From Thaumarchaeota archaeon CSP1-1 (GTDB lineage Archaea > Thermoproteota > Nitrososphaeria > Nitrososphaerales > Nitrosopumilaceae), in contig LDXL01000004.1 in NCBI GenBank assembly GCA_001443365.1, positions 86,001-150,000 of the forward strand: a stretch of 64,000 nucleotides of DNA, given 5' to 3'. Of this stretch, positions 47,993-51,567 are shown in pieces. Below the pieces are notes generated by a model, which did no database searches, had not been told where the DNA came from, and saw only the letters and a program-made list of their open reading frames with translations. A program made the position numbers and the translations under genes. The stretch's first letter is position 1. Each line of letters opens with the position of its first letter.

Positions 47993-49705
47993 CTAGTATT
48001 TCCTCTCCACTGGTTTGTAATTTGTAATTGTAACCGGATGTTTTTTCATAATTGGTTCCTTAGGATCATAATAAGCAAGGGTGTGATGTAAGAAATTAGT
48101 ATCATCTCTTTTTGGATAATCGGTTCTTGCATGACTACCTCGAGATTCTTTTCTATGGATGGCACCAAGAAGGACAACTTCGGCAACCCTAAACATAGAA
48201 TCGAGCTCCATTACATTTGTAAAGTTTGTGTTGTATTCCTTAGCATGATCATCAACATGTTTCCAAGTTTTGCTTTTTAATTCTCGTACTTTCTTTAATC
48301 CAGCCACCATATCAGATTCATTTCTGTAGACATAGGCTTTATCGTTTAATGTATCTGTCAATTCTTGTCTAACTTCGTAAGGATTTACATCGCCATTTCC
48401 TCGAAATATTCCATCATAGATTCTCTTTTCTTCTGCTTCAACGAGATAATATGGAAAAGGTGTCATATGCTGCTTGTTTAAGATATAATCTACTGCAAGC
48501 TCGCCTGTAATTCTTCCCCATACAATGCATTCAGAGGTAGAGTTTGCCCCAAGTCTATTTGCTCCATGTACACTATTACAGGCAGCTTCGCCTGAAGCCC
48601 AGACTCCCTCAAGTTCTGTAGCACCATCGATATTGGTATGAATTCCGCCCATCATATAATGTGCTACTGGCCTCACATCCAAGGGTTCTTGGGCAGGATC
48701 AATACCCGAAAACTTGATTGAAATCTCTCTAATCGCGCCTAATTTTTCTTTGATAAGAGAATCACCTAAATGTCTCAGATCTAATTTCATACACTTTACA
48801 CCAGTTTCGTTATCAAAACCACGACCTTCATTAATCTCAGTCATCATTGCTCTAGAAACAATATCACGAGGGGCCAGCTCCATTTTACCTGCGGCATATT
48901 TTTTCATAAATCTCTCCCCAGTATTATTGAGAAGATAACCGCCTTCACCACGAGCTCCTTCTGTAATTAAAATTCCAGAGGGCAAGATTCCAGTTGGATG
49001 AAATTGTACAAACTCCATATCCTTAAGAGCCATACCTGCTCGATATGCCATATCTATCCCATCAGGAGTTGAGGAAAGAGCATAAGTTGCAAAGCTGTAA
49101 ATTCTTCCAGCACCTCCTGCAGCTATTATCAAAGCCTTTGCTTTGATAGTATAGAATGTTCCACTAGAAAGTTCAATTGCGGTAATACCCAAAAATCGTT
49201 GTCCATCATGAATAATTGACGTAGCAAACCATTCATTTAGAAATTCAATATTATCAAACTTTTGACAGGTATCATATAGTGTTTGCATTTCAAAAAATCC
49301 TACTTTGTCTGAGGCATATGTTGCTCGAGGATAGCTATAACCTCCAAAGTTTCGTTGTCCAAGTCGTCCATCTTCTCTTCTTGACCAAGGCATTCCCCAA
49401 TGTTCGAGCTGATAGATTTCATGAGGTATTTCGCGACAAAGTCTTTCTGCCACATCTTGGTCAGCTAAAAAGTCACTACCTTTTATTGTGTCGTATATAT
49501 GTGACTCGATTGTATCGCCTTCGTCTTCAAATAGAACAGCTGCTGTACCACCTTCTGCGGAAACAGAGTGCGAACGCATGACTTGAACTTTAGAAATTAC
49601 TGCGATCTTAATCTTTGAGCTTTTTTTTGCTGCAGCAATTGCAGCTCTTAGACCAGCAAGTCCAGATCCAACAATAAGCAAGTCATATTCAATAGAATCA
49701 ACCAT
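47993..49705 (-). CDS. sdhA: Succinate dehydrogenase flavoprotein subunit
   Basis: 570 residues. FAD binding is seen at LLIVGSGLAGLRAAIAAAK, the histidine for covalent flavin at MRSHSVSAEGGTAAV, and substrate-site segments QFHPTGILPSGILITEGARG, HYMMGGIHTNIDGATE, and VHGANRLGANS. It oxidises succinate to fumarate. It is the first gene of the operon; a TATA-like ACATATTTAACC (minus strand, near 49740) lies upstream, and the divergent padR promoter is 60 bases further. Confidence 0.95.
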   Translation of the reverse strand: MVDSIEYDLLIVGSGLAGLRAAIAAAKKSSKIKIAVISKVQVMRSHSVSAEGGTAAVLFEDEGDTIESHIYDTIKGSDFLADQDVAERLCREIPHEIYQLEHWGMPWSRREDGRLGQRNFGGYSYPRATYASDKVGFFEMQTLYDTCQKFDNIEFLNEWFATSIIHDGQRFLGITAIELSSGTFYTIKAKALIIAAGGAGRIYSFATYALSSTPDGIDMAYRAGMALKDMEFVQFHPTGILPSGILITEGARGEGGYLLNNTGERFMKKYAAGKMELAPRDIVSRAMMTEINEGRGFDNETGVKCMKLDLRHLGDSLIKEKLGAIREISIKFSGIDPAQEPLDVRPVAHYMMGGIHTNIDGATELEGVWASGEAACNSVHGANRLGANSTSECIVWGRITGELAVDYILNKQHMTPFPYYLVEAEEKRIYDGIFRGNGDVNPYEVRQELTDTLNDKAYVYRNESDMVAGLKKVRELKSKTWKHVDDHAKEYNTNFTNVMELDSMFRVAEVVLLGAIHRKESRGSHARTDYPKRDDTNFLHHTLAYYDPKEPIMKKHPVTITNYKPVERKY

Positions 49706-49791
49706 TTACAGTCAACTAAGCTCTAAAGTTCGGTTAAATATGTATTCTACAAGATCGGCTTCGAATAAAATAATTAGAATTATTAATATAT

Positions 49792-49815
49792 ATCGCTAGT
49801 GATATCACTAGCGAT
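49792..49815. promoter_or_regulatory. Perfect 24-bp palindrome over the padR start codon
   Basis: The half ATCGCTAGTGAT is followed directly by its exact reverse complement, giving 24 bases of perfect symmetry. The palindrome begins right at the end of the TATA-like TTAATATATA (49783-49792) and covers the predicted transcription start and the first two bases of the ATG at 49814. A dimeric PadR protein bound here would block its own transcription, so this is a strong candidate autoregulatory operator. It is also in the divergent region of sdhA, about 90 bases from that start. Confidence 0.75.
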
Positions 49816-50356: not shown

Positions 50357-51235
50357 TTGAATACGCTTAGACAATTGCTGAAAAGCAAAAAACCACTAGT
50401 TATTCCAGGAGTGTTTGATGCAATTGGTGCTAAAATTGCCCAAAAGGCAGGGTTTGAGGCAATGTTTCAAACAGGGTATGGAACATCTGCTACACTTTTT
50501 GGGATGCCAGATTATGGCTTTATTGGTTCTACTGAAACTGTAGAAAATGCTCGTCGAATTTGTCGGGCAGTAAATGTTCCTGTAATAGTTGATGCAGATA
50601 CAGGATATGGTAATGCTCTATCAGTATGGAAATTAGTTAGAGAGTTAGAGGCAGCAGGGGCATCAGGAATGTTTCTAGAAGATCAAAGATGGCCAAAAAG
50701 ATGTGGCCATATGAAAGGAAAAGAAGTGATAAGAAAAGAAGAGTATGCAGAAAAACTACAGGCTGCACTTGACGCAAGGAAAAGTGAGGATTTCATAATA
50801 GTATCAAGAACAGATGCAAGAGCCACAGAAGGTTTAGACAAAGCAATTGAGCGTGGATTATATTACAGAGAAATTGGTGCAGATGTAATTTTTGTAGAAG
50901 CTCCAGAGACAATTGGAGAAATGAAAAAGATTGGTAAATCAATCAAGGCACCACTTGTTGCCAATATGATTGAAGGTGGAGCTACCCCAATTAGTTCAGC
51001 ATCTACGTTACAAAAGATGGGATTTAAAATCATATTATATCCATTGTCAGTTCTCTTTGCAAATACATTTGCGTCACTTCAGATTTTAAAAGAGCTTAAA
51101 AAATCAGGTACAACTACCAAACTCAACAAAAAGCTGGTTAGTTTCGATGAATTCAATGATATTGTTGAATTATCAAAATTTAGAAAATTAGAAAAGAGAT
51201 ATGGTACTTTAAACAAAAAGAAAAAATCCAGGTAA
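50357..51235 (+). CDS. PEP mutase / isocitrate lyase family enzyme
   Basis: 292 residues. Typical segments are VIPGVFDAIGAKIAQKAGF, VIVDADTGYGNA, GMFLEDQRWPKRCGHMKGK (the KRCGH loop with the catalytic cysteine), and SRTDARATEGLDKAIERG. The KRCGH motif favours a lyase such as methylisocitrate lyase or dimethylmalate lyase; oxaloacetate decarboxylase and phosphonopyruvate-related activities are alternatives. The start is a TTG at 50357, since no ATG lies in frame nearby. It follows padR by 33 bases on the same strand, so it may belong to the same transcript. Confidence 0.85.
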   Translation: MNTLRQLLKSKKPLVIPGVFDAIGAKIAQKAGFEAMFQTGYGTSATLFGMPDYGFIGSTETVENARRICRAVNVPVIVDADTGYGNALSVWKLVRELEAAGASGMFLEDQRWPKRCGHMKGKEVIRKEEYAEKLQAALDARKSEDFIIVSRTDARATEGLDKAIERGLYYREIGADVIFVEAPETIGEMKKIGKSIKAPLVANMIEGGATPISSASTLQKMGFKIILYPLSVLFANTFASLQILKELKKSGTTTKLNKKLVSFDEFNDIVELSKFRKLEKRYGTLNKKKKSR

Positions 51236-51240
51236 AGAGT

Positions 51241-51567
51241 TTATTTTCTCTTTACTTCGATTTCAATTGTGGATACGTTTCTTGTTTTACCGTCTTGTGA
51301 CTCTAATGCTTCAGAGCCTAGTTTGATTTCTCCGATTTGATAACCAGCATTTTCTGTCTTTCTGGAAATGATTTGCGAGACATCTACTGCTCGTCCAATG
51401 CTCATTCCTCTTGCCTTAATGCGAACGGCTGGTGAGTTTGCCAACTGAATTAGCGTAGAAGTAACATACGCCATTAGTGGTTTCTTACCAATGAATACTG
51501 TGTCTCTGCTGACAGGAGACTGTTTACTTTCTGTAGTCATGGGAGGCTGTTTGCTTTCTGTAGTCAT
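51241..51567 (-). CDS. albA: Alba chromatin / RNA-binding protein
   Basis: 108 residues. The Alba fold is clear: FIGKKPLMAYVTSTLIQLAN, VRIKARGMSIGRAVDVSQII and a C-terminal strand pair ending EIEVKRK. Alba coats DNA and binds RNA. The first 18 residues are a near-perfect tandem duplication, MTTESKQPP then MTTESKQSP, caused by a 27-base direct repeat. A TATA-like ATTTAAATT about 25 bases before the first ATG (51567) supports that start, so both copies would be translated; a second start at 51540 is possible. Confidence 0.93.
   Translation of the reverse strand: MTTESKQPPMTTESKQSPVSRDTVFIGKKPLMAYVTSTLIQLANSPAVRIKARGMSIGRAVDVSQIISRKTENAGYQIGEIKLGSEALESQDGKTRNVSTIEIEVKRK
51514..51567. repeat. 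27-bp tandem duplication at the alba start
   Basis: Units 51514-51540 and 51541-51567 differ at three of 27 positions. Each ends (plus strand) in CTTTCTGTAGTCAT, so each carries an in-frame ATG for alba on the minus strand. The duplication adds nine residues to a flexible N-terminus outside the folded domain and gives the gene two equivalent start codons. Confidence 0.85.

Follow-up and report, generated by a model that had tools for sequence, protein, structure and literature searches.

In the genome of Thaumarchaeota archaeon CSP1-1, a Nitrosopumilaceae-like ammonia oxidizer whose nearest named relatives are thaumarchaeal genomes labelled Nitrosopumilus and kin, a 24-bp palindrome covers the start of a gene for a PadR-type regulator, which is divergent from the succinate dehydrogenase gene sdhA and is followed by a gene of the PEP mutase/isocitrate lyase family. 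The question raised by this locus is whether the palindrome serves the regulator's own gene or the metabolic genes on either side. The window analyzed here is a 64,000-nt stretch of contig LDXL01000004.1 (positions 86,001 to 150,000), and all coordinates are given within it. From sequence comparisons, the element is very probably a switch for the regulator's own production, and not a control of the neighboring metabolic genes. The regulatory unit comprises:

49783 to 49791, plus strand: TATA-like element of the padR promoter, identified by sequence and by conserved columns −31 to −23
49792 to 49815, no strand: putative PadR operator, a perfect 24-bp palindrome made of two abutting 12-bp palindromes (sequence, simulations and orthologue conservation)
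49792 to 49803, no strand: upstream 12-bp unit, ATCGCTAGTGAT, the better conserved of the two
49804 to 49815, no strand: downstream 12-bp unit, ATCACTAGCGAT, which includes the A and T of the start codon
49814 to 50323, plus strand: padR gene (P0001), 169 amino acids (aa), Pfam PadR (PF03551)

The sequence at 49792–49815 is exactly ATCGCTAGTGATATCACTAGCGAT, a perfect 24-bp palindrome with the halves ATCGCTAGTGAT|ATCACTAGCGAT, as described in an earlier note on this DNA, and no other perfect palindrome in the window reaches 16 bp. The same note had judged such symmetry very unlikely by chance; in 200 first-order Markov simulations with the dinucleotide make-up of the window, the longest palindrome was 22 bp and none (0/200) reached 24 bp. 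Even with 3 mismatches allowed, the palindrome is found only once in the 1.36-Mb genome. When purines and pyrimidines (R/Y) are pooled, each 12-bp half is a palindrome in its own right; the R/Y-degenerate form is ATCRCTAGYGAT, which occurs exactly twice in the genome, both times within the element. The tandem arrangement creates three possible dyads. What has been conserved is a pair of abutting palindromes of this consensus, 12 bp each, and the exact 24-bp mirror symmetry hinges on the particular R/Y letters present.

The position of the element relative to the promoter also agrees with the earlier description of a site running from the TATA box to the first bases of the ATG. The TATA-like TTAATATAT is centered about 27 nt before the padR ATG at 49814 and adjoins the left end of the palindrome, whose final two bases are the A and T of the start codon. 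An in-frame GTG at 49799 lengthens the mechanical ORF; the ATG is the conserved padR start, with 98% A, 100% T and 97% G among 67 orthologues. Given the spacing from the TATA box, transcription is expected to begin at or beside the ATG, which implies that the padR mRNA would be leaderless or near-leaderless, and the element would thus fill the stretch between the TATA box and the start site.

Conservation was assessed upstream of those 67 orthologues, all below 90% identity. At least 11 of the 12 consensus letters were present in the upstream unit of 63/67, in the downstream unit of 48/67 and in a control stretch of 0/67. Mean information per column was 0.85 bits in the upstream unit and 0.97 bits in the downstream unit (a value that includes the two start-codon bases), and 0.14 bits at −58 to −36. 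Nearly all changes within the element are A/G or C/T exchanges at two positions per unit, and the region between the two promoters is unconserved outside it. In 98 of the 106 loci that were measured, the first base of the element lies 22 nt before the ATG, the same as in the window. Outside the family, many families of the order have the same TATA–element–ATG layout, and so does a single genome from a different order of the class; PadR identity in these more distant element-bearing loci is about 40–60%, down to about 40%. The middle letters are altered in some of the distant loci (ATCGCTAACGAT-ATCGTTAGTGAT and ATCACTAATGAT-ATCATTAGTGAT), and ATC...GATATC...GAT is the most constant part. No recognizable element was found at an orthologue outside the family that is 57% identical (locus L303 of genome G193). 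Taken together, the putative padR operator is unusually well conserved. Two further observations were made at padR loci: L310 and L315 (genomes G225 and G223) carry extra copies of ATCACTAGCGATATC upstream of the padR TATA box, giving at least three units around the promoter, and L190 (G169:C1:870800-873000) has a padR match with one in-frame TGA and an intact upstream unit, representing either a pseudogene or a sequencing error.

According to the earlier note, its reading would fail if close relatives that still have padR had lost the palindrome. The relatives keep it, except that several lineages have dropped the downstream 12-bp unit while retaining the upstream one; Nitrosarchaeum-labelled lineages (L110, L112, L113, L115, L124 and L125), for example, preserve the upstream unit and GATAT. 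Because the upstream unit persists where the downstream unit is gone, the irreducible putative operator is the upstream 12–16-bp palindrome beside the TATA box and not the 24-bp mirror centered on GAT|ATC. It is chiefly on this point that the description of the site in the earlier note has to be corrected.

To what extent the element and padR occur together was examined in 151 genomes of the family, with orthologues called at E ≤ 1e-20 and the 24-bp element at no more than 2 mismatches. The full element was present in 94 of 116 padR-bearing genomes versus 0 of 35 padR-less genomes (Fisher p = 1.4e-19, a value that ignores kinship, the counts not being phylogenetically independent). Within one genus, it was found in 11/11 species with padR versus 0/11 without. 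Among the 22 padR-bearing genomes that lack the full element, nine were inspected (G004, G016, G018, G032, G033, G084, G085, G139 and G148), and all nine keep the upstream unit. In related genomes, 12 loci that belong to other PadR paralogues scored 10/12 at best; of seven orthologue loci scored beside them, six reached 11–12 of 12 and the seventh (G038) reached 10.

A scan for the half-site, as the earlier note had suggested, yielded no clear site in the genome of the window besides the padR promoter; in relatives, it detected the element before padR orthologues and before two other types of gene in three genomes. In the window's own genome, single units at up to 2 mismatches numbered 23 versus 20 for a reversed-pattern control, which is background, and both remaining sites with one mismatch fall within unrelated coding regions or at their start. 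The only clear site in this genome is, as judged from these searches, padR's own promoter. Extra 12-mer sites in relatives are mostly within coding sequence and chance-like. A similar geometry (promoter-like A/T stretch, tandem units and nearby ATG) is present upstream of a nucleotidyltransferase gene (PF01909) in two relatives, at about 1457–1480 of L172 (G020:C13) and about 1586–1609 of L189 (G169:C1); the two proteins are from different genera and are about 54% identical. Nucleotidyltransferase orthologues in G006 and G032 are without the element, and the gene is absent from the window's genome. In a third relative, a tandem element at 1500–1523 of L171 (G012:C5), accompanied by a TATA-like box and adjoining an ATG, precedes a gene for a 125-aa protein that has no Pfam match. 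Apart from padR itself, the regulon thus appears to be small and variable. Separately, noncoding ATC-N6-GAT runs with several 12-bp units in a row were observed in G186:C8 (L224, 972–1049; L225, 1019–1054), close to two similar genes of coiled-coil-like type that lie about 12.5 kb from each other; the runs are unrelated to padR and are possibly a mobile or repeated element.

The product of padR matches PF03551 with 43.6 bits (curated cut-off, 27; E=3.1e-11) and is the sole match to this family in the genome. A PDB sequence search with the single protein gave no match, and a profile search of the PDB returned PadR matches. In the AlphaFold model (mean pLDDT 66), the winged-helix core is well predicted, and three C-terminal helices (80–106, 111–128 and 137–164) are predicted after the wing at low confidence. 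The top Foldseek matches are PadR proteins, including LmrR and Thermoplasma TA0346 (probability 1.00, E 2e-5 to 1e-3). Subfamily 1 is recognized by a length of about 180 aa and a multi-helix C-terminal domain of 80–90 residues; the placement of this protein is mixed, since its 169 aa and three low-confidence helices are accompanied by best structure matches in subfamily 2. The recognition-helix region (WKPSPGLIYPLLGRLLDEGLI) is nearly invariant among orthologues. The signature DNA-contacting tyrosines of Bacillus subtilis PadR (BsPadR) are Y20 and Y42 (PMC6457526). In profile alignments to other PadR chains, the position of the GYxI-motif tyrosine aligns with an invariant K34, and the second signature tyrosine is present as an invariant Y56, the BsPadR numbering being that of PMC6457526 and not of a direct alignment. 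The lysine at this position would be a plausible correlate of the changed operator.

The standard PadR motif, ATGT-N8-10-ACAT (PMC3506622), does not occur in the padR/sdhA intergenic region, and its four matches in the window are not above chance. Comparable action on the own promoter, through other motifs, is known for LmrR, cdPadR1 and haloarchaeal RosR (PMC4534193, PMC5050560, PMC4287449). Clostridioides difficile cdPadR1 (PadR-s2) is alike in that it is reported to bind inverted repeats, of which its own promoter has two sites, and is proposed to autoregulate; its motif, TACT-N11-12-AGTA around an AT-rich core, lies about 25 bp before the ORF and recurs at about 200 other genomic places (PMC5050560), whereas here tandem ATCRCTAGYGAT overlaps the start codon and is essentially single-copy. 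Lactococcus lactis LmrR, which is among the best structural matches of the window's PadR, likewise has a PadR fold and autoregulates at its own promoter, where several dimers bind (PMC4534193, PMC3506622). However, it is a subfamily 2 protein of about 110 aa as against 169 aa here, and its operator is an ATGT/ACAT inverted repeat with an 8–10-nt spacer, its main target being the lmrCD transporter (PMC4534193, PMC3506622). BsPadR (operator complex, PDB 5x11) is a larger PadR of subfamily 1; its C-terminal domain is made of several helices, and a ligand controls its binding to DNA. It is a weak profile match to the window's PadR, with a weak overall structure match (TM about 0.4), and responds to phenolic acids; one family signature tyrosine aligns with a lysine in the window's PadR. 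Halobacterium salinarum RosR (VNG0258H) is, like the window's PadR, an archaeal winged-helix regulator, and its 20-bp motif TCGnCGACGAGnTCGnCGAC is likewise readable as two short tandem palindromes near start codons (PMC4287449, PMC3443676). In the table of RosR-regulated transcription factors, its own gene, annotated as PadR family, is listed as repressed (PMC4287449, PMC3443676). RosR differs in belonging to another protein lineage (marginal profile match), in its GC-rich motif and in its many oxidative-stress regulon targets. A described binding site for any PadR of ammonia-oxidizing archaea was not found in the literature searched, where PadR in Nitrosopumilus or other ammonia-oxidizing archaea received only a comparative-genomics mention of sponge-associated PadR genes. 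The kind of system is known, and the putative operator, whose sequence departs from the textbook PadR motif, is new.

A symmetric site over the TATA box/start region of the regulator's own gene, conserved together with that gene, was thus found. As a whole, conservation, position and co-loss with padR strongly support autoregulation, and we consider it highly likely that the palindrome is the operator through which the adjacent PadR-type winged-helix protein regulates its own gene. Since the sequence is unlike the textbook motif, as expected if specificity has diverged, assignment to this PadR stays indirect. The element-less orthologue in G193, the lysine aligned with the DNA-contacting GYxI tyrosine and the moderate quality of the AlphaFold model also count against this reading. 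A PadR dimer would bind the upstream unit ATATCRCTAGYGATAT, which begins where the TATA box ends and has half-sites about one helical turn apart. Most lineages would have the downstream unit, 12 bp further on, occupied as well, either by another dimer or by the first complex extending over it; this would cover the expected transcription start and the start codon. From archaeal promoter architecture, a protein bound at a site abutting the TATA box is expected to exclude initiation factors, so that bound PadR would block the assembly of TBP, TFB and RNA polymerase. padR would then be negatively autoregulated and induced when a ligand or signal frees the protein. Of the self-repression put forward in the earlier note, the autoregulatory operator is strongly supported. 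The sequence, position, uniqueness and conservation of the site, its co-loss with padR and its independence from sdhA are observed directly, and from them we infer PadR binding, the number of dimers, the repressive sign and ligand control.

The same note had linked the regulator to C4-carbon metabolism through its neighbors, which are context outside the regulatory unit:

47993 to 49705, minus strand: sdhA, succinate dehydrogenase flavoprotein subunit, divergent neighbor
49734 to 49742, minus strand: TATA-like element, read CATATTTAA on this strand, of the divergent sdhA promoter; this TATA type persists in padR-less relatives
50357 to 51235, plus strand: PEP mutase/isocitrate lyase family gene, downstream neighbor (PF13714; below the NCBIfam prpB cut-off)

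That the element is an operator shared by both sides, with the divergent sdhA operon as an additional or even the main target and PadR thereby tied to C4 metabolism, is quite unlikely. sdhA is indeed adjacent and divergent to padR in nearly all family members, and about 50 bp separate the sdhA TATA box from the palindrome upstream of it. However, padR is missing in 11 sampled species of one genus, and in the seven examined sdhA and its TATA region are intact (most promoters read CCTTCACAAGACATATTTATGAAG) with no palindrome remaining near them, whereas padR-bearing sisters have a very similar sdhA promoter with the element further upstream. Conversely, families f2 and f8 hold the element before padR with no sdhA in the sampled flank. 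The sdhA–padR gap varies from 78 to 230 bp across relatives and the distance from padR to the PEP mutase gene from about 530 to 1900 nt (one outlier aside), so there is no fixed phasing, and in the window's genome the PEP mutase/isocitrate lyase gene itself lacks an element of this kind. The element tracks padR rather than sdhA, and the C4 link, including its PEP mutase part, was drawn from gene neighborhood alone and is not supported. Further downstream, on the strand opposite to the PEP mutase gene, an Alba-family DNA/RNA-binding protein gene (PF01918) was observed at 51241–51567.

Binding of the element by a different regulator, either a global winged-helix protein or another factor that controls padR, appears quite unlikely. 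It could be entertained because the PadR assignment is indirect and the element also precedes the nucleotidyltransferase and 125-aa genes. A separate factor should, however, leave sites in padR-less genomes, but co-loss with padR is exact, and near absence elsewhere in the genome with single-gene co-conservation across an archaeal class is the pattern of a cognate self-operator. Still less probable, and in our view very improbable, is a core-promoter or RNA element (an initiator, a cruciform or a 5′ hairpin) in place of a protein operator. Its location between the TATA box and the start codon, and the ability of a perfect palindrome to form a hairpin, would be in line with such a role. Against it, the other promoters of the genome are without the element, and uncompensated R/Y changes on the two arms fit reading by a protein better than strand pairing. 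The TATA position implies a transcript start at or near the ATG that would leave most of the element untranscribed, and an mRNA hairpin was rejected on the ground of this implied leaderless transcript.

Autoregulation of padR is thus the preferred reading, and it replaces the idea of a PadR governing succinate dehydrogenase. It provides a specific candidate protein–site pair whose exact sequence can be tested and which is conserved across the order and also, in one genome, in a neighboring order. The near-unique site raises the question of what role is played by a regulator whose only clear target is itself. One possibility, which we offer tentatively and would not call probable, is a nearly self-only regulator: a lineage-specific PadR that has kept one strong genomic operator, its own promoter, over an archaeal class, with a tandem-palindrome code ATCRCTAGYGAT unlike the known PadR operator. 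Its conserved job may be to adjust its own amount to a signal, with an output that may run through protein partners, weak non-canonical sites or genes that are recruited occasionally, such as the nucleotidyltransferase in two relatives.
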